This document shows, one piece after another, positions 47,041 through 63,975 of a DNA stretch of 64,000 nt; within the stretch, counting starts at the first letter, position 1; each line of letters opens with the position of its first letter. The stretch covers positions 434,001 through 498,000 of the forward strand of contig NZ_CP099489.1 of assembly GCF_023923225.1 (NCBI RefSeq), given 5' to 3'. This stretch comes from Ornithinimicrobium faecis. GTDB lineage: Bacteria; Actinomycetota; Actinomycetes; Actinomycetales; Dermatophilaceae. The position numbers and the translations under genes are program-made. The notes below the pieces were generated by a model. It ran no database searches. It was not told the origin of the DNA and was given only the letters and a program-made list of their open reading frames with translations.

Positions 47041-48609
47041 TCATGTCTCCACCTCTGCTGGGACCCGGTCCTCGTCCGTGATCCGGGCGGTGAACACCGC
47101 GCTCAGTGCGCTGGTGACGATCATCATGACGAAAACCGCCACGAAACCCAGCTTGAGATTGTCGAAGTGCTCACTGCCCAGCGTCGCCTCATAGAACGAT
47201 GATCGCGCGTGCGCTGGCAGCAGGCTGGTTGCCAGGAACAGGCTGACCGCGGTGGCGACCGAGCCGCCGATGCCCATCACCGTGAGCCGGACGCCGTTGA
47301 CGACGCCGACCTCGCTCTGCGGGGCGCAGCCGATGATCATTGCCGAGTTGAGTGTGGAGAAGACACCGATGCCCAGGCCGAGCACCAGCAGGGGCACGAC
47401 GACGGTGGCGTAGTCGAGCTCGAAGAGCAGGGTCGGCAGCAGTGCGAGCAGCGCCAGGATGGTGGGGACGACGCTGAACACGGCAGCTCGCCGGTCCCCG
47501 AGCGCCATGGCACACCGGCTGGCCACGACCGAGCCGATCGTGACGCCGACCGCGAGGGGGATGATCTTCAGTCCCGCGTCCACTGGCGAGTCGCCCATGA
47601 CGACCTGGAAGTACAGGCCCACGAGGATCGCGGCCGTGAAGCGGGGCATGACCGCGACCAGGCCAGCCAGGTTGGCCAGGCGGAACTGGGCGTTGCCGAA
47701 CAACGCGATCGGCAGGATGGGGTCGACCGCCCGGCGCTCGACCCAGACCAGGACCGGCACGACGGCCAGGGCCACGGCCAGCCCGGCCAACACGCTGACG
47801 TGCAGGAAGCCCTCGTTCTGGACAAAGGAGAGAGCGATCAGCAGTGAGGCGAGGAAGACCAGGATCGCGAACGCCCCGAGCAGGTCGATCCGGCCCTCGC
47901 GGGGAGCTCGGGGAGGCAGTTTGCCCAGCAGGAAGGCACCGAGCACCACGCACACAACACACAGGGGGACCTGGATCCAGAAGATCCAGCGCCAGCCCAT
48001 GACGTCGGCCGCGAAACCGCCGAGCACCGGCCCGAGCAGCTGCGCCACCGAGACCCCGGCGAGATAGATCCCCATCGCAAAGTTCAGCCGGGCGCCGGTG
48101 AACACCGAGGCGACGATCGCTCCCGTGTTGCACAACAACATGGCGTCCGCCACCGCCTGCAGCGCCAGCAGGGCCAGGACGACCTCGACCGACGGGGCGA
48201 AACCGATCAGCACCGCACTGACGCCGAACAGGATCAGCCCGGCCTGGAACATGCTGCGCCGACCGAAGGTGTCCGCGAGCCGCCCGAAGGTCACCAACAG
48301 GACCGTGCTGACCAGGCCGGGCGCCAACAGCAGCCAGGTCGAGGCCAGCGCGCTCGCCTCGAACTGCCGCACCACGACCGGGACCGCGATGCTCAGGATC
48401 GTCCCCGACGACGACACCATCAGCACCGTCAGGGTGACGAGGGCGAGGATCCAGTTCTCGGTCCGGGCCGTCGTGTCCGGCAACGTCGCCAGCGACCCCT
48501 CCGGTGACCCCGCCGCCGCCACGGAAGCCGGGGGACCCGACGCCAGGGAGTCCGTCGTGACGATGGCTCGGAGCCCGCGGGTGTCTGGCGCAGGGGCGGG
48601 CTGGGTCAA
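47041..48609 (-). CDS. DHA2-type MFS drug/solute antiporter
   Basis: About 522 residues with 14 hydrophobic segments, as in the EmrB/QacA group. Motif A is seen in VTFGRLADTFGRRSMF, and GVSVAQLLGPVLGGFAAD is motif C of antiporters. The start is uncertain: the TTG at 48609 overlaps the etfA stop (TTGA), and a GTG near codon 30 is also possible; the first 50 residues are not membrane-spanning. It follows etfBA and probably exports a compound of the same pathway. Confidence 0.82.
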   Translation of the reverse strand: MTQPAPAPDTRGLRAIVTTDSLASGPPASVAAAGSPEGSLATLPDTTARTENWILALVTLTVLMVSSSGTILSIAVPVVVRQFEASALASTWLLLAPGLVSTVLLVTFGRLADTFGRRSMFQAGLILFGVSAVLIGFAPSVEVVLALLALQAVADAMLLCNTGAIVASVFTGARLNFAMGIYLAGVSVAQLLGPVLGGFAADVMGWRWIFWIQVPLCVVCVVLGAFLLGKLPPRAPREGRIDLLGAFAILVFLASLLIALSFVQNEGFLHVSVLAGLAVALAVVPVLVWVERRAVDPILPIALFGNAQFRLANLAGLVAVMPRFTAAILVGLYFQVVMGDSPVDAGLKIIPLAVGVTIGSVVASRCAMALGDRRAAVFSVVPTILALLALLPTLLFELDYATVVVPLLVLGLGIGVFSTLNSAMIIGCAPQSEVGVVNGVRLTVMGIGGSVATAVSLFLATSLLPAHARSSFYEATLGSEHFDNLKLGFVAVFVMMIVTSALSAVFTARITDEDRVPAEVET

Positions 48610-49562
48610 CTCTTCCGCGCGATCACGGCCTCGGTCGCCTGGGGCAGGACCGCGAAGAGGTCGCCGACGATGCCGTAGTCGACCAGCTCGAAGATTGGGG
48701 CCTCGGGGTCCTTGTTGACCGCGACGATCGTCTTGGAGGTCTGCATGCCGGCGCGGTGCTGGATGGCACCGGAGATGCCGGCGGCGACATAGAGCTGAGG
48801 GGAGACCTGCACGCCGGTCTGTCCGACCTGGTTGGCGTGCGGATACCACCCGGCGTCGACGGCGGCGCGGGAGGCACCAACGGCTGCACCGAGAGAGTCA
48901 GCGAACGCCTCGACCGGGTTGAAGTCACCGCCGGTGCCACGACCACCAGAGACCACGATCGCGGCCTCGGTCAGCTGCGGGCGACCGGAAGCGGCCTTCT
49001 CCTTGCGGTCCACGATCTTCGCGGCGGTGGCCTGCTCGGACAGCGAGATCGTCACGACGTCGTCCGCAGCAGGAGCCGAGATCTCCTCGGCGGCAACGGA
49101 GTTGGGCTTTACCGTGATGATCGGCGTTCCACGGGTCACCGTGGAGGTGACTGTGAAGGAGGCGGCGAAGGCGGACTGCAGCGTCTGCACACCGTCACCG
49201 CCTGCCTGCACGTCGATGGCGTCGGTGATCAGGCCGGACTCGGTCTTGATCGCCAGCCGGGCCGCAATCTCCTTGCCCTCGGCGGTGGACGGGATCAGCA
49301 CCGCGGCGGGGCTGGTGTGGGACACGAGCTGCGCCAGGATCTCGGCCGTGGGGGCCACCAGGTGGTCGGTCACCGCTGGGTCCTCGATCCGATAGACCTT
49401 GACCGCGCCGAAGCGCGCCAGGTCCTCGCGGGCGGAGTCGAAACCGGACCCCACGAAGACGGCCGACGGCTCACCGAGGCGGCGCGCTGCCGTGAGCAGC
49501 TCACCGGTGGTCTTGCGCACTGCGCCGTCGACGTGGTCGACCAGCACCAGAACTTCAGTCAT
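48606..49562 (-). CDS. etfA: Electron transfer flavoprotein subunit alpha
   Basis: 318 residues. Carries FAD and passes electrons from acyl-CoA dehydrogenases to the respiratory chain. The FAD-binding domain is clear: [61 protein letters not shown] and [18 protein letters not shown] at 49562 with GGAGAG. It is 36 bases after etfB. The acyl-CoA dehydrogenase about 11 kb away is a likely partner. Confidence 0.95.
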
Positions 49563-49598
49563 CAGGACTCTCCTTGTCTGTCGGGTGTATGCCGTGGG

Positions 49599-50381
49599 TC
49601 AGGCGAACTTGTGGGTCGCCAGGAACTGGGCCAGGGCTGTGCCGCCCTCGCCCTCGTCGGTGACGACCTGTCCGGCGGCGCGGGGCGGGCGGGCCGAGAC
49701 CTCGAGCACCCGGGTCCAGGCGGCGTCGATCCCGACCTGGCCGGCGTCGACGCCGAGGTCGGCCAGGGACCAGGTGTCCACCGGCTTCTTCTTGGCGGCC
49801 ATGATCCCCTTGAAGGAGGGATAACGAGGCTCGTTGATCCGGTCGGTCACCGACACCACGGCGGGCAGCGAGGCCTCGATGGTCTCGCTCGCGGTGTCGC
49901 CGTCCCGACGGATCTGGACCCCACTGTCGCTCAGGGTCAGTTCGGAGGCGTGCGTGGCCTGGGGGAGTCCGAGTCGCTCCGCCAACATCGCGGGCAGCAC
50001 CCCCATCGTGCCGTCGGTGGAGGCCATGCCGGTGATCACCAGATCGACCGGACCAATCTTCTTGATGGCCTCGGCCAGGATCAGCGAGGTCGCGGGGGCG
50101 TCGGATCCGGCGATCGCGTCGTCCAGGATGTGCACGCCCCTGTCGGCGCCCATCTGCAGGGCCTTCTTGATCGCGTCGGCGGCGTCGTCCGGACCGATGG
50201 TCAGGACGCTCACCTCACCACCGTCCCCCGCCTCGCTCACAGACAGGGCCGTCTCCACGGCATACTCATCCAGCTCGGAGAGCAGGCCGTCCACGGCCTC
50301 CCGGTCGGTCGTGTGGTCGGGCTCGAAACTCCGGTCGGACTGTGCGTCCGGCACGTGCTTGACACAGACAACGATGTGCAT
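49599..50381 (-). CDS. etfB: Electron transfer flavoprotein subunit beta
   Basis: 260 residues, the AMP-binding partner of EtfA. It starts MHIVVCVKHVPDAQSDRSF, has the AMP-loop region VLTIGPDDAADAIKKALQMGADRGVHI and the docking region LPAVVSVTDRINEPRYPSFKGIMAAKKK, the recognition loop for dehydrogenases. Divergent from the ABC importer operon; a TCTAGA-type palindrome lies in the shared gap. Confidence 0.95.
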   Translation of the reverse strand: MHIVVCVKHVPDAQSDRSFEPDHTTDREAVDGLLSELDEYAVETALSVSEAGDGGEVSVLTIGPDDAADAIKKALQMGADRGVHILDDAIAGSDAPATSLILAEAIKKIGPVDLVITGMASTDGTMGVLPAMLAERLGLPQATHASELTLSDSGVQIRRDGDTASETIEASLPAVVSVTDRINEPRYPSFKGIMAAKKKPVDTWSLADLGVDAGQVGIDAAWTRVLEVSARPPRAAGQVVTDEGEGGTALAQFLATHKFA

Positions 50382-50473
50382 CTGTTGCGTCCCTTCTCAG
50401 GTGTCAACCAGCCAGGCGGCACCCGGCTCTGGCCGAGACAGCCCCGCTGGAGTTAAAGGTTTGGTTCAAAGCC

Positions 50474-50501
50474 TTGACAGCCGATCCGTCCCGGCTAGAC
50501 T
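50474..50501 (+). promoter_or_regulatory. Promoter of the ABC importer operon
   Basis: A perfect -35 TTGACA (50474-50479) and -10 TAGACT (50496-50501) 16 bases apart. The operator at 50512-50530 lies at the expected transcription start. Confidence 0.65.
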
Positions 50502-50511
50502 CGCTGTCCAT

Positions 50512-50530
50512 CCTAGAGTGTCATTCTAGG
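50512..50530. promoter_or_regulatory. TetR-type operator, site 1
   Basis: CCTAGA-GTGTCAT-TCTAGG, a 6-bp inverted repeat with a 7-base spacer, starting 11 bases after the -10 box. The same architecture is found at 60411-60442 and 60577-60595, upstream of the MaoC and acyl-CoA dehydrogenase genes. It could also affect etfB on the other side. Confidence 0.75.
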
Positions 50531-50613
50531 ACCGGCTTCGGAATATGGGTCACGTCACATTTTTGACGAGGGCTCCAAGGAGTCGCCCATGACCTCAGAG
50601 TGGAGGCACCGCA

Positions 50614-51630
50614 GTGGTGAACGAGAACGGACGCGTCCTGTTGGACGTGCAGGACTTGTCAGTGGAGTTTCGCACCGGCGACGGCATGCTGGAGGCGCTC
50701 AGTGGGGTGGATTTCACCGTGCGTGAGGGCGAGGTTGTCGCCGTGGTCGGCGAGTCCGGCTCCGGCAAGAGCGTGACGGCACTGGGGATCATGGGTCTGC
50801 TGGGCAACGGTCGGGTCAGCGGCGGACGCATCATGTGGGACGGCCTCACCGACCTGGCGACGGCTAAGCCCAAGAACTTCCGGGCGATCCGCGGCAACGA
50901 CATCGCGATGATCTTCCAGGACCCGATGACCTCGCTCGACCCGCTCTACACCATCGGCAACCAGCTCTGCGAGACGCTGCGCCTGCACCGGCGCATGAGC
51001 CGTCGTGAGGCGCGCACCCAGGCCATCGAGCTGCTGGGCATGGTCGGGATCCCCGACCCCGACTCCAAGGTGGACGCCTATCCGCACGAGATGTCCGGTG
51101 GCCAGCGGCAGCGCGTGATGATCGCCATCGCCCTGGCCTGCTCCCCGCGCCTGCTCATCGCCGACGAGCCGACGACGGCGCTCGACGTCACGGTCGAGGC
51201 GCAGGTGCTGGCCCTGCTGCGGGACCTGCAGCGCGACAAGAACGTCAGCCTGATGCTGATCACCCACGACATGGGCGTGGTCGCCGAGATGGCCGACCGG
51301 GTCGTCGTCTTCTATGCCGGGCGGGTCGCCGAGCAGGGGAGCGTTGACGACATCCTGCAGAACCCGCGCCACCCCTACACCCAGGCTCTGCTCCAGGCGA
51401 TCCCGCGGCCGACCACACCGCGTGACGAGCCGATGCCGGCCATCGCGGGCAACGTGCCCGCCCTGCACGAGATGCCGTCCGGCTGCCGTTTCGCGGCCCG
51501 CTGTCCGCTGGCGCACGACGCCTGCGAGGAGCAGCCGCCGCCCGTGGCCATCACGGCAGAGCACTCGGCCGCCTGCTGGCTGGCCGCCGATGACCGCGCG
51601 TCCGTCGTCCTCGAAGGGAGCCCGGCATGA
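50614..51630 (+). CDS. Peptide/nickel-type ABC transporter ATPase (DppD/OppD-like)
   Basis: 338 residues. Walker [11 protein letters not shown]-loop [12 protein letters not shown], signature [15 protein letters not shown] and Walker [13 protein letters not shown] are complete; the C-terminal oligopeptide extension has cysteines ([19 protein letters not shown]) typical of the [4Fe-4S]-bearing OppD/DppD tail. GTG at 50614 after GGAGG. First of five importer genes that are fused by overlaps to acyl-CoA enzyme genes, so the cargo may be a carboxylic acid or conjugate and not a peptide. Confidence 0.92.
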
Positions 51631-52652
51631 CCTTGTCAGCCACGGCCGACAGTGCCACCGATCGGCAGGGCGTCGCCCCGCTGCTCGAGGTCACTGACCT
51701 GGTCAAGCACTTCCCCGTCGGGGGTGGGCTGTTCCGCAAGGAGTCTCCTCCGGTGCGGGCGGTCGACGGCGTCTCGTTCTCGATCGGTCGCGGTGAGACC
51801 CTCGGGCTGGTCGGTGAGTCGGGCTCGGGCAAGTCGACCCTGGGGCGGCTCGTGCTGCGCCTGCTCGACCCCACCAGCGGCACGGTGACCTTTGACGGTC
51901 AGGACATCACGACGGCACGGCAGTCGCAGGTCAAGCCGTTGCGGCGGCGGATGCAGCTGATCTTTCAGGACCCGGTGAGCTCGTTCAACCCGCGGATGAC
52001 GATCGAGGACCTCCTCATGGAGCCGATGGTCGTGCACGGCATTGGGACCCCCGCCGAGCGCAAGCGCCGCTGCGCCGAGCTCCTGGACCAGGTCGGTCTC
52101 GCCTCCAGCGCCCTGGCGAAGTATCCGCACCAGTTCTCCGGCGGTCAGGCCCAGCGCATCGGCATCGCCCGCGCCCTGACCACCGACCCGGACCTGCTGG
52201 TCTGTGACGAGGCGGTCAGCGCCCTCGACGTGTCGATCCAGGCGCAGGTGCTCAACCTGCTCAAGTCGATCCAGCAGGAGCAGGGCATCAGCTATCTGTT
52301 CATCGCCCACGACCTCAACGTGGTCCGCTATATCTCGGACCGGGTCTGCGTGATGTATCTCGGCAAGCTCGCCGAGGTGGGCGGGAGCGACCGGATCATG
52401 GCCGACCCGCTGCACCCCTACACCCAGGCGCTGATCCGCTCCATTCCGGCGGTGACCGCCAGCTCCAGCCGCGTCGAGCGCATCCCGCTGCAGGGCGAGA
52501 TCCCCAACCCGAGCAAGCCGCCCGCCGGTTGCCGCTTCCACACCCGCTGCCCGCTGAAGTTCGACCTCTGCGAGCAGGAGGAGCCGCAGCTGCACGAGCG
52601 CGACGGCTCACTGACGGCCTGCCACCTCTACCGCCCGGAGGCCTCCGCATGA
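51627..52652 (+). CDS. Peptide/nickel-type ABC transporter ATPase (DppF/OppF-like)
   Basis: 341 residues, partner of the previous ATPase. Walker [22 protein letters not shown], signature [15 protein letters not shown] and Walker [13 protein letters not shown], where Ala stands in place of the usual Pro after Glu. The C-terminal cysteine cluster ([19 protein letters not shown]) is the same kind as in its partner. ATGA overlap on both sides. Confidence 0.92.
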
Positions 52653-53599
52653 TCGGCTATTCGATCCGACGCACGCTCTATGGGCTGCTCGTGCTGTTGA
52701 TGGTCACCACGTTTGTCTTTGTCGTGCTGCGCCTCATCCCCGGCGACGTGGTGCGCCTGCAGCTGGCCGACGCCCCCGGGGTGACCCAGGCACAGGTCGA
52801 CGCCCTCGCCGCCGAGCTCGGCCTCGACCAACCCGTGTTCACCCAGTTCTTCTCCTTCATGTCCGGGGCACTGACCGGTGACCTGGGCACGTCCTTTGAG
52901 ACGCGGCTGCCGGTCACCGAGATGATCGTCGAGCGGCTGCCGGCCACCCTGGAGCTCGGCGCTCTGGCCATCATCTTCAGCGTCCTGCTGGGCGTCCCGC
53001 TCGGTGTCATCTCGGCGATGCGCAGCAACTCCGTGCTGGACCAGTCGCTGCGGTTGGTGTCGGTCGCCGGCATCTCGGTGCCGAACTTCTGGCTGGCGCT
53101 GCTGCTGATCACCTATCTGTCGATCTGGTTCGGCTGGTCCCAACCGCTGGTCTATGCCACGCCCTGGCAGGACCTCTCGACCAACTTGTCGATCATGATC
53201 ATCCCGGCGCTGGCGCTCGGCACCTCCGCGATGGCGGCGGTCTCGCGGATGCTGCGCTCCTCGATGCTCGAGGTGACCCAGTCCAACTTTGTGCGCACCG
53301 TCCGCTCCCGCGGAGCATCCGAGGGGCTGGTCATCCTCAAGCACGCCGGTCGCAACTCGATCCTGCCGGTCTTCACCCTGCTCGGTCTGCAGGTCGGTCA
53401 CATCCTGGGCGGGACGGTGATTCTGGAGTCGATCTTCTCGATCCCGGGCATGGGATCGCTGATCTTCACCTCGGTCCAGATGCGTGACTATCCGGTCGTC
53501 CTGGGCTGCGTCATCTTCTATGGCGCCGTCTTCATCCTGGTCAACCTGCTGGTGGACCTTGTCTACGCCGTCATCGACCCTCGCATCCGATACTCCTGA
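52649..53599 (+). CDS. Peptide-type ABC transporter permease (DppB-like)
   Basis: 316 residues, six transmembrane helices. The first helix follows [13 protein letters not shown], typical of DppB; the binding-protein-dependent transport motif around RTVRSRGASEGLVILKHAGRNSILP is the EAA loop contacting the ATPase. The ATG at 52649 overlaps the upstream stop. Confidence 0.92.
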   Translation: MIGYSIRRTLYGLLVLLMVTTFVFVVLRLIPGDVVRLQLADAPGVTQAQVDALAAELGLDQPVFTQFFSFMSGALTGDLGTSFETRLPVTEMIVERLPATLELGALAIIFSVLLGVPLGVISAMRSNSVLDQSLRLVSVAGISVPNFWLALLLITYLSIWFGWSQPLVYATPWQDLSTNLSIMIIPALALGTSAMAAVSRMLRSSMLEVTQSNFVRTVRSRGASEGLVILKHAGRNSILPVFTLLGLQVGHILGGTVILESIFSIPGMGSLIFTSVQMRDYPVVLGCVIFYGAVFILVNLLVDLVYAVIDPRIRYS

Positions 53600-53612
53600 G
53601 GAGATCTCCGCC

Positions 53613-54539
53613 ATGTCGATCGTTCAGCAATCCGATGCCACCGAGGCGCACGATGCCGTCATCGCCGACGGGACCATCCCGCCACCCGTGGAGCGGCCAC
53701 CCAGGCGGCGTGCCTTCCGCCGGTTCGCCCGGCAGCAACCCTTTGGGTTGGCCGCACTGGTGCTCATCGTGGCCTTCGTGGCGATGGCCGCGCTCTGTCC
53801 CTGGCTCGCGCCCTATGACCCCCTGGAGCAACAGCGGGGCAGCATCATGATGCCACCCAGCCCGGACCACCTGATGGGCACCGATGACCTGGGTCGGGAC
53901 GTGCTGAGCAGGACCCTGTATGGCGCACGCACCAGTTTGTTGGTCGCCGTCGCCACCCTGGGGCTGGGTGGGGTGGTCGGCATCCTGCTGGGCACCCTGT
54001 CGGGTTATCTGGGGGGCAGTTGGGTGGACACCATCATCCAGCGGGTGATGGACACGCTGATGGCGATCCCGTCGATCGTCCTGCTGCTCTTTGTCGCAGC
54101 GCTGCTCGGCCCGAGCATCCGCAACACGGTGATTGCCCTCAGCCTGTTGGTCATCCCGCAGTTCAACCGAGTCACCCGCGGGGAGATGCTGCGCATCCGT
54201 GAGGAGACCTACGTCGAGGCCGCCCGTGCCATCGGGTGCAGTCCGTGGCGCATCCTGTCGCGTTATGGCCTGCCCAACCTGATGGCGCCCCTGTTTGTGC
54301 TGGGCTCCCTGGTCTTCGCGGGCATGATGATCGCCGAGTCGGCCCTCAGCTTCCTCGGCATCGGCACGCCGCCGCCGACCCCGTCCTGGGGGCGGATGCT
54401 CAGCGAGGGGTCGTCCTCCCTGGAGATCGCACCGTGGATCGCCTTCTATCCGGGCCTGGCCCTGTCCGTCTCCGTCCTCGCGTTCAACCTGCTCGGTGAT
54501 GCGATGCGCGACTTCCTCGACCCCAAACAACGCCGCTGA
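53613..54539 (+). CDS. Peptide-type ABC transporter permease (DppC-like)
   Basis: 308 residues. A charged N-terminal cytoplasmic tail (PPVERPPRRRAFRRFARQQP) leads to six helices; GTDDLGRDVLSRTLYGARTSL is the DppC hallmark and YVEAARAIGCSPWRILSRYGLPN the EAA loop. GAGGAG precedes the ATG. Pairs with the DppB-like permease. Confidence 0.92.
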   Translation: MSIVQQSDATEAHDAVIADGTIPPPVERPPRRRAFRRFARQQPFGLAALVLIVAFVAMAALCPWLAPYDPLEQQRGSIMMPPSPDHLMGTDDLGRDVLSRTLYGARTSLLVAVATLGLGGVVGILLGTLSGYLGGSWVDTIIQRVMDTLMAIPSIVLLLFVAALLGPSIRNTVIALSLLVIPQFNRVTRGEMLRIREETYVEAARAIGCSPWRILSRYGLPNLMAPLFVLGSLVFAGMMIAESALSFLGIGTPPPTPSWGRMLSEGSSSLEIAPWIAFYPGLALSVSVLAFNLLGDAMRDFLDPKQRR

Positions 54540-54608
54540 GGCACCCAGAACAGCTCTGTCAGCACCGTTTCATCCCTCGCCGCCCTGGCACCTTTCCTAG
54601 GAGAAATG

Positions 54609-56273: not shown

Positions 56274-56277
56274 CACC

Positions 56278-57102
56278 GTGAGTGACACCCAGGAAGAGGT
56301 GGCGACCAGCCAGCTCTGGCTGGAAGGCAGCCCCCCACCCAGGCCAGGCATCCCGCTCACCCTGCGCAACGGCATACAGCTCTTCCTGGCCAACAACCCC
56401 AGCTCGTGGACCTTTGAGGGCACGAACACCTGGGTCCTCACCGACGCCGGTCACGCCATCGTCATCGACCCCGGGCCGGAGGACGAGCCCCACCAGCGGG
56501 CGGTCGCCGACTGGATCCGGGCGCGCGAGTTGCGCCTGGAGCACCTGGTGATCTCGCACGGGCACTGGGACCACTCCGGCGGCCTCAAGGCGTTGGCGGC
56601 GCTGACCGGGGTCGCCGGTGTCACCGATCTGCGGGGCAGTGCAGACGGGGCCTCGCTGCCCTTCGGTGCCAACAGCGACCAGGAGCTGCTCGTCTATCGC
56701 ACCCCCGGCCACACCAGCGACGGCATCACGCTGCTGTGGCCGCGCCACAAGGTCGCCTTTGTCGGGGACAGTGCGATGGCTCGGGTCAACCCCTACATCC
56801 ACCACCCCGACGGGACGATCACCGACATCTTGGAGTCGATGGACAAGATGGCCGGCCTGGTCGACGACTCCTGGCTCCTGCTCTCCGGGCACGGGCCGGT
56901 CATCACCTCTCCGCGCACCCACCTGGTGCGCCGGATGGAGTCGCGTCAGCGACGCATCGCGGAGGTGCGCGGCCACCACGAGAACGGTCTCGACGAGGCC
57001 CAGATCGTCGCAGCCATGTATGGCGACCGCGGTGAGCAGACGCAACGCGCCGCCGCCGCGACCGTCAGCGCGCTGCTCGCCCACATCACTGAAAGGAACT
57101 GA
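56278..57102 (+). CDS. Metallo-beta-lactamase-fold hydrolase
   Basis: 274 residues from the GTG at 56278; GTGs at 56263 and 56266 are alternatives. The metal site is complete: SHGHWDHSGG (HxHxDH), His in RTPGHTSDGI, Asp in VAFVGDSAMAR and His in LLLSGHGPVI. The GTNTWVLTDAGHAIVIDPGPE start resembles LACTB2 and glyoxalase II-like enzymes. Lying four bases after the binding-protein stop, it may hydrolyse a thioester or lactone in the pathway. Substrate unknown. Confidence 0.88.
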   Translation: MSDTQEEVATSQLWLEGSPPPRPGIPLTLRNGIQLFLANNPSSWTFEGTNTWVLTDAGHAIVIDPGPEDEPHQRAVADWIRARELRLEHLVISHGHWDHSGGLKALAALTGVAGVTDLRGSADGASLPFGANSDQELLVYRTPGHTSDGITLLWPRHKVAFVGDSAMARVNPYIHHPDGTITDILESMDKMAGLVDDSWLLLSGHGPVITSPRTHLVRRMESRQRRIAEVRGHHENGLDEAQIVAAMYGDRGEQTQRAAAATVSALLAHITERN

Positions 57103-57105
57103 TCG

Positions 57106-57528
57106 TTGAGCACACCACCCAAGTTCGTGCCACAGGCCACCCCGGAGACCCAGCCCTACTGGGACGGCACGGCGGCGAGGGAGCTGCGGATCCAGCAGTG
57201 CGTCCCCGAGCAGCACACCTATTTTTATCCGCGCACCAGCTGCCCCGTCTGTGGCACGGAGGAGGTGAAGTGGGTGACGGCCTCGGGTCGGGCCCAGCTG
57301 CACACCTACGTCATCTCGCACCGCCCGGCGCCGGGCTTCACCCCGCCCTATGTCATCGCGGTGGTCGAGCTCGAGGAGGGGCCACGGATGATGACCAACC
57401 TGGTCGGGGTCGAGCCCGACCCGGAGCACCTCGAGCTGGACATGGACCTGGTCGTCGACTTCGAGGCACGTGGCGACGATGTCTTGGTGCCGGTCTTCCG
57501 CCCCGCCGACAGTGAGGCGGCAGCATGA
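57106..57528 (+). CDS. DUF35 OB-fold acyl-CoA-associated protein (ChsH2 C-terminal type)
   Basis: 140 residues from a TTG at 57106 with AAGGA upstream. The family has a rubredoxin-like zinc finger and an OB fold: CVPEQHTYFYPRTSCPVCG (residues 32-50) then LHTYVISHRPAPGFTPPYVIAVVEL. Only three of the usual four cysteines are present (Cys32, Cys46, Cys49), with Glu35 where the second Cys is expected. In steroid degradation such proteins pair with Ltp2 to form a retro-aldolase. Here the thiolase-like gene follows with a four-base overlap. Confidence 0.88.
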   Translation: MSTPPKFVPQATPETQPYWDGTAARELRIQQCVPEQHTYFYPRTSCPVCGTEEVKWVTASGRAQLHTYVISHRPAPGFTPPYVIAVVELEEGPRMMTNLVGVEPDPEHLELDMDLVVDFEARGDDVLVPVFRPADSEAAA

Positions 57529-58673
57529 GCGACGTCGTCATCATGGGCGCTGCCGAGACCGATCAGCTCGGCAAGCTCCCCGACATCAGCACCCTCGAGC
57601 TGCACCTGCAGTCCGCCCGCAACGCGCTGCGTGACGCCGGGTTGGGCATCGAGGACATCGACGGGATCGCCTCCGTCTCGGCGCCGGGGCCGGTGACGAT
57701 CGCCCACGCCCTGGGGATCACCCCGCGCTGGGTCGACACCACCTCGGTGGGCGGGGCGTCGTTCTTGTTCCACGTGCGTCACGCGGTCGCGGCCATCAGG
57801 GCCGGTCACGCCAACGCCGTCCTGGTCACCCACGGAGAGTCCGGCCGCTCCCGGGTTGGGGCACCGCCATGGGCGATGGCCAAGGACTCCCTCTCGGGAC
57901 AGTTCGAGTTTCCGTTCGGCGTGCTCGGCCCGCCGACGACCTTCAGCCTGCCGGTCATGCGCTTCATGAAGGAGACCGGCACGACCATCGAGCAGCTCGC
58001 CGAGGTGGCCGTCGCCCAGCGGCGGTGGTCCTCGCAGAACCCGCGAGCGATGTTCCAGGAGGAGGTCACCGTCTCGGACGTGCTCGACTCCCGGCCGGTC
58101 GCCAGCCCACTCACCCTGCTCATGTGCTGCCTGGTCACGGACGGGGGCGGTGCCCTCGTGGTCACCTCGCGCGAGTTCGCCGAGTCCCGCGGCACCGACC
58201 ACCCGCTGGTCTCCGTGCTGGGGACCGGTGAGTGCGCGACCACACCGATGATTTCGCAGATGGCGGATATGACCCGCTGCGAGCAGTTTGAGGTCTCGAG
58301 TCGGCACGCCTTGCAGGAAGCGCGCATGACGACCAGCGATATCGACCACCTGATGATTTATGACGCTTTTGCGCACGTGCCGCTCTTTGGGCTCGAGGAC
58401 ATGGGCTTTGTCGGGCGTGGGGAGGCCGGTGCCTTTGTCGCCGAAGGCAACACCTCACCCGGCGGATCGCTGCCGATGAATACCAACGGAGGAGGGCTGT
58501 CCTACACCCACACCGGGATGTATGGCATGTTCGCGATCCAGGAGGCGGTCCGTCAACTGCGTGGTGAGGCGGCTGCCCAGGTGCCCGATGTCAGCACCAG
58601 CCTGGTGCTGGGCAACGGCGGAATGTTTATGAGCGCAGCGACCCTCGTGCTCGGAAACGAGGCGGCCGCCTGA
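57525..58673 (+). CDS. Thiolase-like protein lacking the nucleophilic cysteine (Ltp2-type aldolase candidate)
   Basis: 382 residues, thiolase fold (LQSARNALRDAGLGIEDIDGIASV at the start; LVTHGESGRSR; IYDAFAHVPLFGLEDMGFV). The catalytic Cys of true thiolases is replaced in the TTSVGGASF segment (residues 72-80). The C-terminal NTNGGGLSYTHTGMYGM also departs from the thiolase GHPxGA. This is the pattern of SCP2/Ltp2 proteins that cleave beta-hydroxyacyl-CoAs by retro-aldol chemistry with a DUF35 partner, which is encoded directly upstream. ATG overlap is four bases. A strong hairpin follows. Confidence 0.88.
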   Translation: MSDVVIMGAAETDQLGKLPDISTLELHLQSARNALRDAGLGIEDIDGIASVSAPGPVTIAHALGITPRWVDTTSVGGASFLFHVRHAVAAIRAGHANAVLVTHGESGRSRVGAPPWAMAKDSLSGQFEFPFGVLGPPTTFSLPVMRFMKETGTTIEQLAEVAVAQRRWSSQNPRAMFQEEVTVSDVLDSRPVASPLTLLMCCLVTDGGGALVVTSREFAESRGTDHPLVSVLGTGECATTPMISQMADMTRCEQFEVSSRHALQEARMTTSDIDHLMIYDAFAHVPLFGLEDMGFVGRGEAGAFVAEGNTSPGGSLPMNTNGGGLSYTHTGMYGMFAIQEAVRQLRGEAAAQVPDVSTSLVLGNGGMFMSAATLVLGNEAAA

Positions 58674-58686
58674 CCGAATCTTTCGC

Positions 58687-58719
58687 GACCGTCGGACCCG
58701 CAGTGCGGGTTCGACGGTC
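58687..58719 (+). terminator. Terminator after the thiolase-like gene
   Basis: GACCGTCG (58687-58694) and ACCCGC (58696-58701) pair with GCGGGT and CGACGGTC (58705-58719) around a three-base loop, with one G-T pair in the middle. It lies 14 bases after the stop and ends the eight-gene importer operon. Confidence 0.78.
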
Positions 58720-58845
58720 CTGCGCACCCATTACCCTGTTAAATGCCACCGGTCAGGGAAGCCGGTTTCGGGCTAGGCTCCGTTGCCACCACAACGGGGA
58801 TGCCCGACACCAATCCAGACCCGTGAATGGAGAGGATGGCATTGC

Positions 58846-59487
58846 ATGACTATCTTGAATGAGGAAGACGAAGCGGGCCAGACGCCGGCCCCGGCAAGCA
58901 CTCGCCAGTGGGGCAAGACCAATGACACCCGGCGGACCATTCTGTCCGCAGCCGAGGACGTCTTCGTCGATCTGGGCTACTGGCAGTCCAACATCTCCGA
59001 CATCGTCGAGCGGTCCGGCTCCAGCGTCGGCAGCATCTATCACCACTTTGGCGGCAAGGCCGAGTTGTTCACGGCGCTCTGGGAGAACTACTCCCAGACC
59101 ATGGGAGGCGTGGCCAACGAGGCCAGCCAGGCCCACCTGACCGAGCACCCGGACGATCTGCCCATCGATGCCTTCTGCGCTGGCGCCCGCGCCTATTGCC
59201 TGCACACGTGGGGAAGTCGGCGCGGACTGAGCCTGTTCTACTCCGGCGACACTCCGCCGGGCTATGAGAAGTTGCGCCGCAAGGGCAACAGCCGGTGGTT
59301 GCGGCGCAACGCCAAGTTGCTGGACCTGGGCGACAACCGGGGAGACGCCCTGGTCACGATGTCACTCACCGCTGTCATCGCCGAGGCCTGCCGCGTGATC
59401 ATCGAGGTGGACACCGAGGAGGAGGCACGCCGCGTGACCGAGGTCGCCGTCGGACTGCTGAAGGGCCTCTACGACGCCCGGCCCTGA
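58846..59487 (+). CDS. TetR-family regulator, likely controller of the acyl-CoA regulon
   Basis: 213 residues. The helix-turn-helix is NISDIVERSGSSVGSIYHHFG (residues about 47-67, core SVGSIYHHF) after ILSAAEDVFVDLGY. The C-terminal ligand-binding domain includes CLHTWGSRRGLSLFYSGDTP. It is encoded between the two parts of the regulon, and three promoter regions nearby carry the same 19-base palindrome. TetR proteins of this type are released from DNA by acyl-CoA ligands. No copy of the palindrome was seen before its own start. Confidence 0.9.
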   Translation: MTILNEEDEAGQTPAPASTRQWGKTNDTRRTILSAAEDVFVDLGYWQSNISDIVERSGSSVGSIYHHFGGKAELFTALWENYSQTMGGVANEASQAHLTEHPDDLPIDAFCAGARAYCLHTWGSRRGLSLFYSGDTPPGYEKLRRKGNSRWLRRNAKLLDLGDNRGDALVTMSLTAVIAEACRVIIEVDTEEEARRVTEVAVGLLKGLYDARP

Positions 59488-59529
59488 GATCGACGCCCGC
59501 CCTGAGACCGACGCCCGGGCCCTGAGGTC
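59473..59529. repeat. Three imperfect 19-bp repeats at the tetR 3' end
   Basis: Units starting GACGCCCGG at 59473, 59492 and 59510, each followed by CCTGAG. The first holds the tetR stop codon and the others lie between tetR and the convergent MaoC gene. No function is evident; probably slippage. Confidence 0.7.
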
Positions 59530-59532
59530 GAC

Positions 59533-60393
59533 TCAGACCCGGGCGGTGCCGCGGTCGAAGCACACCGTGCCGTCGCTGCGCAGCGTCTGGAACGTGACAT
59601 CGCCGTCGTCGCTGCGCCAGGCGCGGACCGTCAGGGTGTCACCGGGAGTGACGGGCGCGGAGAAGCGCCCGCCGATCGCGGTCAGGGCGCTGACCTCGCC
59701 GTCGGCCAGCCCGGAGATCAGGGCGCGGGCGCTGATGCCGTAGGTGCACAACCCGTGCAGGATCGGGCGCTCGAAGTTGCCGCGGGCGGCGAACACCGGG
59801 TCGGAGTGCAGGGGGTTGCGGTCTCCGCTGAGGCGATAGACCAGCGCCTGACCTGGCCACGTCGGCATCTCGGCGACGAGGTCGGGCTCGCGCTCGGGCA
59901 GGACCCACTCGTGTGCCGGGGCGGGTGAGCCCCCGGTCGTGCCGTCGCTGAAGCCACCCTCGCCGCGGATGAAGATCTGGCTGCGCGAGAGCACCAGGTC
60001 CTCGCCCGTTGCCACATCGACGGCCCGACTCTCGGAGGAGATCAGGGCGCCCGAGCGCTTGTCCTCGATGCCGGTGATGACACTGGTCACCTCGACCTCA
60101 CCCTCGACCGGCAGCGGTCGGCTCAGCTCAACCTCCTGGCCGCCATGGACCAGCATCGCCGGGTTGAAGTCGCCCAGCTTGCGGCCCCCGCCGCCAGAGG
60201 CAACGAGGACGCCATAGGTGGGCAGCACCTGCTGGGCGATGTCGTGGCTGTTCTCCGTTGTCAGGGAGAGTTCCGCCAAGGGATCGTCGTGTCCTGCACC
60301 GCAACCCACGGCATACAGCAGGGTGTCCTTGCTGGTCCACGAGCGGCGCACCGCCTCTGAGGGGACACCGATGAGGTCGTGGTTGAGGGACAT
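59533..60393 (-). CDS. MaoC-family enoyl-CoA hydratase
   Basis: 286 residues with two hot-dog domains. The N-terminal one (about 1-140) is degenerate; the C-terminal one has the hydratase-2 motif YRLSGDRNPLHSDPVFA with its Asp and His, followed by RPILHGLCTYG. It would hydrate a trans-2-enoyl-CoA to a 3-hydroxyacyl-CoA, the substrate for the Ltp2-type aldolase. ATG at 60393 with GGAGG. Its promoter and operator are in the divergent gap. Confidence 0.92.
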   Translation of the reverse strand: MSLNHDLIGVPSEAVRRSWTSKDTLLYAVGCGAGHDDPLAELSLTTENSHDIAQQVLPTYGVLVASGGGGRKLGDFNPAMLVHGGQEVELSRPLPVEGEVEVTSVITGIEDKRSGALISSESRAVDVATGEDLVLSRSQIFIRGEGGFSDGTTGGSPAPAHEWVLPEREPDLVAEMPTWPGQALVYRLSGDRNPLHSDPVFAARGNFERPILHGLCTYGISARALISGLADGEVSALTAIGGRFSAPVTPGDTLTVRAWRSDDGDVTFQTLRSDGTVCFDRGTARV

Positions 60394-60410
60394 GTGGGCC
60401 TCCGGTTAGA

Positions 60411-60442
60411 TCTAGAGTGGAATTCTAGAGCAACGTTCTAGT
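60411..60442. promoter_or_regulatory. TetR-type operator, site 2 (two overlapping palindromes)
   Basis: TCTAGA-GTGGAAT-TCTAGA (60411-60429) and TCTAGA-GCAACGT-TCTAGT (60424-60442) share the middle half-site, giving three half-sites at a 13-base period. On the minus strand this overlaps the -10 box and start of the MaoC transcript. Confidence 0.8.
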
Positions 60443-60463
60443 ACGGATGTGTCGCGCTGTCAA
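60435..60463 (-). promoter_or_regulatory. Promoter of the MaoC gene
   Basis: On the minus strand TTGACA (60463-60458) and TAGAAC (60440-60435) are 17 bases apart. The -10 box overlaps the outer operator half-site. Confidence 0.68.
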
Positions 60464-60535
60464 TCCCTGGGGTCTCGCGTGACCAGGTGGCGGCGACCAT
60501 CAGGATCGCGTTCGGCAAAGTTTTGGAAAAGGGTC

Positions 60536-60564
60536 TTGACGGGGTCGCAGCCGTCAGGCATGCT
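60536..60564 (+). promoter_or_regulatory. Promoter of the acyl-CoA dehydrogenase operon
   Basis: TTGACG (60536-60541) and CATGCT (60559-60564) are 17 bases apart. The operator begins 12 bases after the -10 box, as in the importer promoter. Confidence 0.62.
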
Positions 60565-60576
60565 CAACCCCAGGAT

Positions 60577-60595
60577 TCTAGAGGATGATTCTAGA
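60577..60595. promoter_or_regulatory. TetR-type operator, site 3
   Basis: TCTAGA-GGATGAT-TCTAGA, a perfect 6-bp palindrome with a 7-base spacer, just after the predicted transcription start of the dehydrogenase operon. Confidence 0.8.
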
Positions 60596-60625
60596 AACGC
60601 GTTCGACACGAGCAAAGGAGCTGGG

Positions 60626-61798
60626 ATGGTCGACTTCTCCCTCACTGAGGAGCAGCGGGACGTTCGGAATGCAGTGCGGTCCTTCATCGAGAAGGAGGTC
60701 ATGCCGTTCGAGGCTGAGGTGCTGCGCAACGAGCGCGAGGGCCGGCCGAGCCTGGAGCCCGGCGTGCTCAAGGAGCTGCAGCAGAAGGCGCGCAAGCACG
60801 GCTACTGGGGCATCAACACCCCGGAGGACTACGGCGGCATGGCTGTCGGACCCGTGCTCAGCGCCATCATCGCCGGCGAGGCGGGCCGGACCTATGTCCC
60901 GTTCCGCTTCGGTGGCTCCGCCGACAACATTCTGTATGCCGGCACCAAGGAGCAGCAGGAGGAGTTTCTGCTGCCGACGATCGAGGGCGAGCGGCGCAGC
61001 TGCTTTGCGATCACCGAGCCCGGTGCGGGCTCCGACGCCCGCAGCATCCAGACCAAGGCCGTCCAGGACGGCGACGACTGGATCATCAGCGGCGAGAAGA
61101 TCTTCATCACCAACGGCAACGAGGCCGACTTCGTCATGGTCTTCGCGGTCACCGACAAGGAGAAGGGCGCCGACGGCGGCGTCACCTGCTTCCTGGTCGA
61201 CCGCGCCATGGGCTGGACCTCCGACCCGATCGCCACGATGGGCGAGTGGGGACCGGCGTCCCTGCACTTCGACAACGTCCGCGTCCCGAGCCGCAACATC
61301 CTCGGTGAGGTCGGCAAGGGCTTCGAGCTGGCCATGCGCTGGATCGGTCAGGGCCGCTACATGATCCCGGCCGGTGCGTTGGGCGGCGCCGAGCGCATGC
61401 TCGAGATGGCGATCGACTATGCAAACACGCGCCACTCGATGGGTCGCCCCATCGCCGAGTATCAGGGCATCCAGTGGCACATCGCCGACAGCGCCGTCGA
61501 GCTCGAGGCCGCGCGCTGGCTGACCCTGTTCGCCGCCTGGCAGGTCCAGGAGGGCAAGGACGCCCGGCAGGCCTCCTCGATCGCCAAGCTGAGCGGCACG
61601 ACCATGGCCAACAAGGTGGTCGACCGCGTGCTGCAGATCCACGGCGGCATGGGCTACACCAAGGAGCTCCCACTCGAGCGCTGGTATCGCGAGCTGCGCC
61701 TCCTGCGCATCTTTGAAGGCACCGACGAGATCCAGAAGCGCACCATCGCGCGCAACCTGCTCAAGGGGCACGTCAAGGTTGGTGACTCGCTGCGATGA
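60626..61798 (+). CDS. Acyl-CoA dehydrogenase
   Basis: 390 residues, FAD enzyme that introduces the 2,3 double bond of an acyl-CoA and hands electrons to ETF. Motifs: FAITEPGAGSDA at the FAD/substrate site, GEKIFITNGNEADFVMVFA, and the catalytic Glu364 in LRIFEGTDEIQKRTIARNLL. ATG at 60626 with AAAGGAG. Its stop overlaps the start of the ADP-forming ligase gene. A partner ETF is encoded at 48606-50381. Confidence 0.95.
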   Translation: MVDFSLTEEQRDVRNAVRSFIEKEVMPFEAEVLRNEREGRPSLEPGVLKELQQKARKHGYWGINTPEDYGGMAVGPVLSAIIAGEAGRTYVPFRFGGSADNILYAGTKEQQEEFLLPTIEGERRSCFAITEPGAGSDARSIQTKAVQDGDDWIISGEKIFITNGNEADFVMVFAVTDKEKGADGGVTCFLVDRAMGWTSDPIATMGEWGPASLHFDNVRVPSRNILGEVGKGFELAMRWIGQGRYMIPAGALGGAERMLEMAIDYANTRHSMGRPIAEYQGIQWHIADSAVELEAARWLTLFAAWQVQEGKDARQASSIAKLSGTTMANKVVDRVLQIHGGMGYTKELPLERWYRELRLLRIFEGTDEIQKRTIARNLLKGHVKVGDSLR

Positions 61799-63975
61799 CC
61801 ACCATGGACGGGTTCTTCACGCCGAGCAGCGTCGCGCTGGTCGGGGCCACGGACAAGTCCGGCTGGTCACTCAGCACCTTCAACAACCTGCGCGACCCCG
61901 AGCACGGTTATCCGGGCGAGGTGTATCTGGTCAACCCGCGCACCGAGGTGGTGCACGACACCGCGGCCTATCCGAGCCTGACGGCCATCGGCAAGCCGGT
62001 GGACCTGGCCTATGTGATGACCCCGGTCTCGGTTGTGCCCCAGGTGCTGCGCGAGGGTGCTGCCCTCGGCACCCGGCACTATGTCGTGCTGACCGCAGGC
62101 TATGGCGAGGTCGGCGGCGAGGGTGCGGTGCGCGAGCAGGAGCTCGCGGACCTGGCCGAGGAGCTCGACCTGGTCGTGCTCGGGCCCAACGGCAACGGCT
62201 TCATCAATGCTGCGATGAAGACCAACCCCTACGGGTTGCCGATCCCCAAGCCGTTGATCTCGGGCAACGTCGGCGTCGTGCTGCAGAGCGGTGGGTTGGC
62301 CAGCAACGTGCTGGCCTTCGCCCAGGCCCGCAACATCGGCGTCAGCCTGCTCACGTCGATGGGCAACGAGACCGTCGTCAGTGTCACCGACGTCGTCTCC
62401 GCCCTCGTCGACGACCCAAACACCAAGAGCATCGCGCTCTTCCTGGAGGCGATCCGCAACCCGGAGGAGTTCCGTGAGGTGGCGAACCGAGCGCTCGCCG
62501 CCGGCAAGCCGATCGTGGCGCTCAAGGTCGGGCGCAGCGAGAAGGCCTCTCGGACAGCGCAGGCGCACACCGGTGCGCTGGTGGGCGACGACAAGACCAT
62601 CGATGCGGTCTTCAAGCAGCTCGGTGTCGTGCGGGTGGAGTCGTTGGAGGACCTCATGGTCACCGCAGGCCTGCTGGCTGAGACCGGACCGCTGCCGGGC
62701 AACCGCATCGGCGTGGTGACCCCCTCCGGAGGTGCCTCGGAGATCATCGCCGACCGGGCGGATATGGAGGGGCTGGACCTGCCCGACTTCTCCCCGGAGA
62801 TCACCGCCGAGCTGAAGGCGATCGTGCCGGAGTTCGCGACGGTCGCCAACCCGTTGGACGTCACCGGCTTCGTGCTGCTCGACCGCACCCTGCTGGGGCG
62901 GGCGGCCGAGGCTGCAGCCAAGGAGCCGGCGATCGACCTGGTGGTCCTCCTGCAGGACCTGCCCAAGTCGACGCCCTCGATGGACGACACGGTGGCGGCC
63001 TTCACTGCCAACGCCGAGATCCTGGCCAAGTCACCGGTCCCGGTGGTGATCATGGGCAACGTGCTCACCGACATCAACGAGGTCGGGCGTGAGGTCACCA
63101 GACGGAGCAACTATCCGATGATCCTTGGTGGCATCGAGCACGGCATGGCTGCCATCGGGCACGCCGTTCGGTGGAGTGAGACCTATCGGCGGGCTCAGGA
63201 GCGCCGGGGCACCGGCGACGGCGGGTCCGTGGTCCGGTTGCCCACCACGGATGCCTCGGGTGTCTGGGCCGAGCATCGCGCCGGGTCCTTCCTGCGCGAG
63301 CACGGCGTGCCGATTGTGCCGACCGAGCTGGTCTCCGATGCCGACGCTGCGGCTGCGGCGGCGGACGAGGTGGGCTATCCGGTGGTCCTCAAGGCTGCTG
63401 CCGAGGGACTGGCGCACAAGAGCGACATCGGTGGGGTGCATCTCGGCCTGGCCAGTGCCGACGCGGTCCGAGAGGCCTTCGGGTCGATGCAGGCCAGCCT
63501 CGCTGAGCACGGGCACCCGGAGTCACAGGCGATCATCCAGCCGATGCGGTCCTCCGGGACCGAGCTGCTGGTCGGGGTTGTGCGGGACCCGCAGTGGGGC
63601 CCCACCCTCGCTGTGGCGATGGGTGGCATCTGGGTCGAGGTCATGGCCGACTCGGCCCTGCGGGTGCTGCCGGTTGACCGGCAGGAGGTCCGTGAGGCGA
63701 TCGAGGAGTTGCGCGGCGTCGGCATGCTGCGGGGGGCCCGCGGCACGCCGGCCACGGATCTCGACGCGCTGGCGGCGGTGATCCACCAGGTCGGCGAGAT
63801 CGCTGTCGGGCTGGGCGATGACCTCGAGTCCCTGGAGATCAACCCGTTGCTCGTCCACGGCGACCGGATCGAGGCGCTCGACGCGTTGATCACCTGGCGC
63901 TCGGACGGCGAGCCCAATGGCGGTCAGGGCGCCTCCACCCCATCCGACGACGAGGTCAGTCGGCGCGGAGCCTGA
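61795..63975 (+). CDS. ADP-forming acyl-CoA ligase (acetate-CoA ligase family, fused subunits)
   Basis: 726 residues joining both subunits. Residues about 5-100 are the CoA-binding Rossmann domain (SVALVGATDKSGWSLSTFNNL), about 145-290 and 300-450 the succinyl-CoA-synthetase-like domains (VLQSGGLASNVLAFAQARNIG, VVTPSGGASEIIADRADMEG), and about 490-720 the ATP-grasp domain (YPVVLKAAAEGLAHKSDIGGVHLGL, core LAHKSDIGGV). It makes acyl-CoA from acid, CoA and ATP, releasing ADP and phosphate. In this operon it should activate the imported acid. ATGA overlap with the dehydrogenase gene. Confidence 0.93.
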   Translation: MTTMDGFFTPSSVALVGATDKSGWSLSTFNNLRDPEHGYPGEVYLVNPRTEVVHDTAAYPSLTAIGKPVDLAYVMTPVSVVPQVLREGAALGTRHYVVLTAGYGEVGGEGAVREQELADLAEELDLVVLGPNGNGFINAAMKTNPYGLPIPKPLISGNVGVVLQSGGLASNVLAFAQARNIGVSLLTSMGNETVVSVTDVVSALVDDPNTKSIALFLEAIRNPEEFREVANRALAAGKPIVALKVGRSEKASRTAQAHTGALVGDDKTIDAVFKQLGVVRVESLEDLMVTAGLLAETGPLPGNRIGVVTPSGGASEIIADRADMEGLDLPDFSPEITAELKAIVPEFATVANPLDVTGFVLLDRTLLGRAAEAAAKEPAIDLVVLLQDLPKSTPSMDDTVAAFTANAEILAKSPVPVVIMGNVLTDINEVGREVTRRSNYPMILGGIEHGMAAIGHAVRWSETYRRAQERRGTGDGGSVVRLPTTDASGVWAEHRAGSFLREHGVPIVPTELVSDADAAAAAADEVGYPVVLKAAAEGLAHKSDIGGVHLGLASADAVREAFGSMQASLAEHGHPESQAIIQPMRSSGTELLVGVVRDPQWGPTLAVAMGGIWVEVMADSALRVLPVDRQEVREAIEELRGVGMLRGARGTPATDLDALAAVIHQVGEIAVGLGDDLESLEINPLLVHGDRIEALDALITWRSDGEPNGGQGASTPSDDEVSRRGA

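Follow-up and report, generated by a model that had tools for sequence, protein, structure and literature searches.

The window analysed here is a 64,000-nucleotide stretch of the Ornithinimicrobium faecis genome (bases 434001-498000 of a single contig of 4.62 Mb, completeness 99.9%); the host is described as a soil-type actinobacterium. It holds a locus in which the genes of a peptide-type importer run into those of a thiolase-like protein (thl) and its DUF35 partner, close to genes for a TetR-family regulator and for acyl-CoA metabolism. The loci used for comparison come from the 80 best among 588 confirmed relatives of the thiolase-like protein. The closest named relative at the locus is Ornithinimicrobium murale, whose thiolase-like protein is 97% identical. 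A preliminary description, made from the sequence alone, had listed the genes and read them as one acyl-CoA regulon with retro-aldol cleavage. Its gene list was confirmed with small corrections only, and every named gene was present with the expected Pfam families. The features are as follows.

47041-48483: major facilitator superfamily (MFS) gene, adjoining etfA; members of its cluster are present in 22 of the 80 relatives' loci
48606-49562, minus strand: electron transfer flavoprotein (ETF) alpha subunit, etfA (PF00766, 107 bits; PF01012), divergent from dppD across the operator
49599-50381, minus strand: ETF beta subunit, etfB (PF01012, 142 bits)
50513-50529: operator-like palindrome CTAGAGTGTCATTCTAG, 84 bp before dppD and 131 bp before etfB
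50614-51630, plus strand: dppD-like ATPase (ABC_tran, oligo_HPY)
51627-52652, plus strand: dppF-like ATPase (ABC_tran, oligo_HPY)
52649-53599, plus strand: dppB-like permease (BPD_transp_1)
53613-54539, plus strand: dppC-like permease (BPD_transp_1, OppC_N)
54606-56273, plus strand: family-5 solute-binding protein (SBP) with a lipoprotein-like N-terminus (SBP_bac_5, 252 bits)
56260-57102, plus strand: metallo-beta-lactamase (MBL)-fold hydrolase (Lactamase_B)
57106-57528, plus strand: DUF35 partner, zinc ribbon/OB-fold (OB_ChsH2_C, 70 bits; zf-ChsH2)
57525-58673, plus strand: thl, proposed retro-aldolase (Thiolase_C_1, 199 bits; Gly77, Y279-D-A-F282, His329)
58684-58724, plus strand: strong hairpin 3' of thl (-32.8 kcal/mol, no T-run)
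58846-59487, plus strand: TetR-family regulator, proposed palindrome binder (TetR_N, 47 bits)
59533-60393, minus strand: two-domain MaoC/hydratase-2-type enoyl-CoA hydratase, maoC (Pfam; PDB matches 3khp and hydratase-2 enzymes)
60412-60428: operator-like palindrome, 18 bp before maoC
60425-60441: operator-like palindrome overlapping the 60412 copy, 31 bp before maoC
60578-60594: operator-like palindrome, 31 bp before acad
60626-61798, plus strand: acyl-CoA dehydrogenase, acad (Pfam; top PDB matches short- and medium-chain enzymes)
61795-63975, plus strand: ADP-forming acyl-CoA ligase, acs (Pfam)

Neighbouring frames overlap by 4 bp at dppD/dppF, dppF/dppB and DUF35/thl, and the SBP and MBL frames overlap as well, which bears out the proposed continuous run from the importer through MBL and DUF35 to thl. 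With two ATPases, two permeases and a family-5 SBP, the Dpp/Opp part set is complete. The strong hairpin without a T-run that follows thl is possibly the end of the dpp-thl transcript, and tetR is therefore probably a separate transcription unit. Human LACTB2 (BETA-LACTAMASE-LIKE PROTEIN 2) was the top PDB match of the MBL-fold protein at 46 bits; the protein may serve as a thioesterase or lactonase. Beyond the window, the acad-acs run extends into genes for an MFS protein, two short-chain dehydrogenases/reductases (SDRs) and a canonical thiolase (L086:1080-5320). This continuation and the MFS gene at 47041-48483 had been missed in the preliminary description.

A palindrome shared by importer and acyl-CoA genes

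Three intergenic regions were searched for palindromes, and two of them had CTAGA-N7-TCTAG in common. The host genome contains exactly four exact sites in its 4.62 Mb, all at promoters of the locus, and none of the reversed-pattern control. In 148 other genomes of the host's family, none with a thiolase-like gene at E<=1e-100, there are 8 exact sites, spread over 7 genomes. With up to one mismatch allowed, the window gave four matches against a shuffle mean of 0.30, and 0 of 100 shuffles reached four. The shared, nearly exclusive palindrome supports one regulon joining the importer and the acyl-CoA genes, in line with the co-regulation already proposed. The copies at 50513, 60412, 60425 and 60578 had themselves escaped notice.

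Relatives were divided into 48 loci (L001-L048), almost all actinobacterial, and 32 others that were treated separately. The 48 loci contain 85 exact sites, distributed over 36 loci and all outside called genes (85/85). CTAGA-N7-TCTAG was their top inverted 5-mer repeat at gaps of 0-12, the next ranks being shifted registers of it, and in a control over 60 letter permutations the other 59 reached at most 3 sites. The remaining 32 loci gave neither a palindrome site nor a called TetR relative. A TetR relative was called in 29 of the 36 site-bearing loci, and three further loci have TetR but no exact site. Within 300 bp upstream, the palindrome was found at acad in 20 of the 48 loci, at tetR and at a gene of the vicinal oxygen chelate (VOC) family in 18 each, at duf35 in 17 and at an MFS gene in 15, followed by dppD and maoC (3 each) and mbl and etfB (2 each). 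In Streptomyces carpinensis (L030), an exact operator lies 75 bp upstream of etfB. From the letter frequencies we read the wider consensus as TTCTAGA(A/G)T-NNN-A(C/T)TCTAGAA. The VOC companion resembles methylmalonyl-CoA epimerase, at a score under the cut-off (70 versus 115 bits).

In all 80 loci, thl is immediately preceded by the DUF35 gene. Among the 48 loci, contig-truncated ones included, the best represented of the other genes is tetR (34 loci at 38% identity or more), then maoC (27 at 45% or more), acad (25 at 60% or more), acs (24 at 50% or more), mbl (6 at 27% or more) and, at 28% or more, dppA and dppB with 5 loci each; apart from dppB in one, none of these turned up in the other 32 loci. 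ETF occurs in 2 of the 48. Identity of dppC to the window's copy was 91% in L001, 74% in L002, 75% in L003, 37% in L040, 41% in L035 and 44% in L056. The core of the module is acid activation, dehydrogenation, hydration and the DUF35/thl pair, with the importer an occasional member.

Members can also be found away from the module. Across the whole genomes of 14 relatives, 35 of 72 exact sites fell inside the module locus by coordinate comparison, and in six genomes (O. murale, Blastococcus, Microbispora bryophytorum, two Rhodococcus and one metagenome-assembled genome) all of them did. Eighteen palindrome regions outside module loci were opened. A further region, L126, flanks the O. murale locus and contains no site. 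An unlinked Dpp-type importer of Streptosporangium sp. KLBMP 9127 lies about 0.14 kb from a palindrome, and its SBP is the genome's top SBP relative (452 bits, next 139). Unlinked palindrome-marked genes are maoC, SDR and MBL in S. carpinensis and, in Thermocatellispora, a VOC gene and an MFS gene 82% and 84% identical to those of the module. MBL is counted as operator-linked only in S. carpinensis, Blastococcus and R. corynebacterioides, with exact sites within 300 bp upstream, and in R. ruber by position. As a general unlinked member MBL was rejected: in several Streptosporangiales genomes its best relatives stand in a different setting, next to another conserved gene and mostly without a site. 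L108, L109 and L113 have the palindrome beside other TetR genes and an MFS gene as well, so that a similar site may be in use by a second regulator.

Several observations argue against such a regulon. The window's own tetR has no palindrome in its upstream region. In the 14 genomes, 37 of the 72 exact sites fall outside the module locus, several of them at unrelated genes (L108, L109, L113, L116, L119, L120, L125), and the reversed control is of the same order in large genomes (up to 5 sites), which shows that some sites arise by chance. Only 5 of the 48 loci have a linked importer, and in Thermocatellispora the closest importer relative lacks a palindrome even with two mismatches allowed, which speaks against a general importer link. 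Relatives of the acyl-CoA dehydrogenase (65-68%) occur without thl in 26 of the 148 other genomes of the host's family, so this gene alone is not diagnostic.

The active site of the thiolase-like protein

Thiolase-like proteins of the 80 loci were aligned with solved chains. By sequence, thl has the thiolase fold (381 bits to 4u4e, 153 bits to 6ok1). All 80 loci have Gly at the nucleophile position (Gly77 in the window), and YDAF and His329 are likewise invariant. As one of the six search peptides behind these loci contained YDAF, the count was repeated on the 120 best database proteins, the window's own included: all 120 kept Gly77, YDAF and His329, and none had Cys at position 78. This position, which neighbours the nucleophile column, holds Cys in 38 of the 80 loci and Ala in the window. 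The second catalytic Cys position is occupied by Asn364-Gly365, such that thl has neither Cys of a canonical thiolase. Its earlier characterization as Cys-less holds for the catalytic positions and not for the protein as a whole, which keeps Cys201-Cys202. The solved chain 4u4e ('Thiolase'), which we take to be from Sphaerobacter, is 51% identical to thl over aligned residues and keeps Gly, Tyr and His, with YDSF instead of YDAF.

Gly77 and Tyr279 of YDxF give the pair the resemblance to known retro-aldolases that had been claimed for it. Tyr279 aligns with Tyr294 of TcLtp2, for which the residue numbering was checked, and with Tyr302 of CtSal, while His329 aligns with Tyr344 and Gln352, respectively. 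In the accessible part of the CtSal report, the catalytic pairs are Tyr294/Tyr344 (TcLtp2) and Tyr302/Cys304 (CtSal), the Tyr of YDxF is essential in both aldolases, and changing Cys304 of CtSal to Ala abolishes activity (PMC12329534). Thl has His329 and Ala281 in place of these second catalytic residues (Tyr344 or Cys304) and was therefore filed neither as Ltp2 nor as Sal. Set against YDHF/Tyr344 and YDCY/Gln352, YDAF/His329 constitutes a third active-site type on the DUF35-thiolase scaffold, one not recognized in the preliminary description.

TcLtp2-ChsH2(DUF35) (6ok1), the cholesterol side-chain retro-aldolase, shares with the pair the thiolase fold, a separate DUF35 protein, the YDxF Tyr and Gly for the nucleophilic Cys. 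It is 34% identical to thl over aligned residues and serves steroids, whereas the gene context of thl is non-steroid. CtSal-CtShy (9myr), a bile-acid side-chain aldolase, is 32% identical over aligned residues; from what is available of its report, it shares the fold, DUF35 partner, nucleophile-position Gly and Tyr base and acts with a MaoC hydratase, as the window's module would, but its DUF35 is fused to MaoC and separate in the window (PMC12329534). BbsAB benzoylsuccinyl-CoA thiolase and an archaeal thiolase/DUF35 complex (7pxp, 6esq) have the DUF35 partner, the fold and His at the 329 position in common with thl, but HDxF instead of YDxF; true DUF35-linked thiolases in the alignment carry His at the Tyr279 position. 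Unlike thl, 6esq has a nucleophilic Cys in the alignment, in which the N-terminal half of 7pxp was left unaligned. In a tree with flagged long branches, the thl family and 4u4e formed their own clade (99/96), with Ltp2 next to it at only 84/64. Sal stood apart and grouped with a second pair of the host (100/96). This second thiolase-like/DUF35 pair (L087:7982-9618; G000:C1, about 1403981-1405617) has Sal-type YDCY and Gln and adjoins genes for a CoA ligase, a thiolase, a MaoC half and an MFS protein.

The zinc ribbon of the window's DUF35 protein (57106-57528) reads C-x4-H-x8-C-x2-C, a Cys3His arrangement also found in O. murale. Its relatives have four Cys in 76 of 80 cases, one C3H and three other arrangements, which refutes a Shy-like Cys3His finger as a trait of the thl family. 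In the available text of PMC12329534, a Cys3His zinc ribbon is reported only for Shy.

Proposed pathway and alternatives

We think it fairly probable that the locus is a regulon for the catabolism of an organic acid, under TetR control through CTAGA-N7-TCTAG and ending in retro-aldol cleavage. A TetR-family repressor would bind the palindrome, and the peptide-type ATP-binding cassette importer would take up the acid or its conjugate. The ADP-forming ligase would convert the acid to its CoA ester, which the dehydrogenase, passing electrons to ETF, and the MaoC hydratase would turn into a beta-hydroxyacyl-CoA. The DUF35/thl pair would split this in a retro-aldol reaction, with Tyr279 serving as base and His329 as likely acid, into a carbonyl compound, more likely a ketone, and a short acyl-CoA; SDRs and the canonical thiolase would pass the remainder through ordinary beta-oxidation. 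The CoA-dependent pathway of the preliminary description is supported.

It is possible, though we lean against it, that the importer takes up peptides or another nutrient and shares the control of the acid pathway without belonging to it: the closest solved relatives of its SBP have peptides, haem, opines or nickel as ligands, and most relatives of the module, without a linked importer, use MFS genes. Yet the importer palindrome recurs in Ornithinimicrobium, Nocardioides and the unlinked Streptosporangium case, and in two Rhodococcus loci an SBP gene is divergent from acad across the palindrome.

Retro-aldol cleavage is the likeliest chemistry for the pair. A point against it is that the essential Cys304 of CtSal is Ala in the thl family; given that Cys304Ala is inactive in CtSal, an aldolase of this family would need a different acid. 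We propose His329, a residue that thiolases keep, as the likely candidate. The pair could alternatively be an acyl-CoA decarboxylase, an acyl transfer enzyme or a hydrolytic enzyme that works without Cys, with the rest of the regulon serving ordinary beta-oxidation. The Ala substitution would fit such a role, the canonical thiolase, SDRs and hydratase already complete a cycle, and TbSLP, a homologue without Cys, shows weak malonyl-CoA decarboxylase activity in the accessible part of PMC12329534. We find this doubtful, as the Tyr essential in both known aldolases is invariant in the thl family and true DUF35-linked thiolases carry His in its place.

Hints at the product come from other hosts. 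In both Planotetraspora silvatica and P. mira, genes for a PHP protein, for an esterase of the Abhydrolase_3 family and for a monooxygenase come after DUF35-thl in the same orientation. The monooxygenase has its closest solved relatives among Baeyer-Villiger enzymes (steroid, phenylacetone, OTEMO and cyclohexanone), and the succession hints at a ketone. A Blastococcus locus has a cut frame resembling a Baeyer-Villiger monooxygenase (BVMO) beside an Abhydrolase_3-type esterase and a cytochrome P450, the latter 67% identical to one beside a palindrome-aldehyde dehydrogenase (ALDH) pair in Nonomuraea thailandensis. On plasmids of Sphingomonas MM-1 and Rhodococcus AH-ZY2, BVMO-like and esterase genes lie 6 and about 22 kb from the pair. 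Weighing against a ketone, the BVMO fingerprint occurs in only 3 of 80 loci, two from one genus; the host genome's six matches resembling flavin-containing monooxygenases are all far outside the window; and two of the four plasmid stretches opened have no BVMO-like gene within view, one of them bearing no annotation.

The Sphingomonas plasmid, pISP0 (L151), has a P450-MaoC-CoA transferase-ALDH-SDR-DUF35-thl-TonB receptor cluster near a TetR gene. That of Rhodococcus sp. AH-ZY2 (L150:8775-14716) has MBL-SDR-MaoC-DUF35-thl-AMP ligase beside LysR genes, with YDAF and His kept, and also bears Mce-type transport genes and many acyl-CoA genes.

An aldehyde might instead be released, from an alpha-branched or aryl-alkanoic acid such as 2-ethylhexanoate or phenylpropanoate by cleavage of a secondary beta-hydroxyacyl-CoA. 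ALDH genes lie near the module on a Sphingomonas and a Rhodococcus plasmid, and an ALDH gene lies 31 bp after the palindrome in N. thailandensis. 2-Ethylhexanoate is the side-chain acid of di(2-ethylhexyl) phthalate (DEHP). Rhodococcus AH-ZY2 degrades phthalate esters including DEHP, from what is available of its report, which suggests 2-ethylhexanoate as a candidate substrate (PMC13188901). We nonetheless regard an aldehyde as unlikely: the window's regulon as read has no ALDH, the AH-ZY2 cluster has LysR genes for neighbours and its ALDH may serve the alcohol side, and the accessible text of that report does not mention the AH-ZY2 genes (PMC13188901). For the favoured retro-aldol pathway, the substrate would be a beta-branched or alicyclic acid; alicyclic and isoprenoid acids are the other candidates hinted at.

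A regulon for steroid or bile-acid side chains is disfavoured and very improbable: known aldolases of this fold act on steroids, but the only KshA_C match in the host genome is weak (25.7 versus a cut-off of 23.3 bits; 160 of 207 positions in a 503-aa frame), and the Sal-type pair elsewhere is the better candidate. The earlier statement that steroid-ring genes are absent, probed here with KshA_C, is weakened by this match just over the cut-off and by the second pair.

Significance of the proposed Tyr-His pair

The scaffold, DUF35 partnering and retro-aldol use are already known. IpfDE of ibuprofen catabolism, in which IpfE is presumably a DUF35 protein, offers a non-steroid precedent. In the available part of its report, the retro-aldolase step is attributed to ipfDE, a thiolase-like protein cleaving a hydroxylated acyl-CoA; it acts after a ring dioxygenase, unlike thl, and the likeness is one of description (PMC9195938). 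The claim of a new use of the module was therefore overstated. Overall, the earlier interpretation survives in part, in its regulon, CoA pathway and nucleophile-free pair, and is weaker on steroid absence and novelty. What is new is the Tyr-His site, together with the defined regulon bearing the palindrome and that regulon's occasional tie to a peptide-type importer; our literature search found nothing describing this regulon.

More tentatively, and with the odds against it, the pair may be a general bacterial lyase whose Tyr-His dyad lets beta-oxidation proceed where a beta-branch or ring carbon would stop it, converting a tertiary beta-hydroxyacyl-CoA to a ketone and acetyl-CoA, with the ketone passing to Baeyer-Villiger oxidation in some hosts. 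(1-Hydroxycyclohexan-1-yl)acetyl-CoA lyase (EC 4.1.3.35), an activity reported in Arthrobacter, would share this reaction type, an idea with no sequence behind it. To our knowledge no gene is attached to that activity, and the literature searched contained no paper giving one; two papers found there deal with cyclohexanecarboxylate or give the EC number in a table. If true, the general lyase would supply the gene for such activities and reassign thousands of 'thiolase' annotations.

The database holds at least 8000 thl-like proteins, the number scored, and names among the 120 listed relatives include 'thiolase' and 'acetyl-CoA acetyltransferase' despite the absent catalytic Cys. Should these relatives be aldolases, a widespread branch of acid breakdown carries the wrong label. 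With the palindrome, regulon members can be predicted in each genome in turn, making inducer, substrate and enzyme directly testable.

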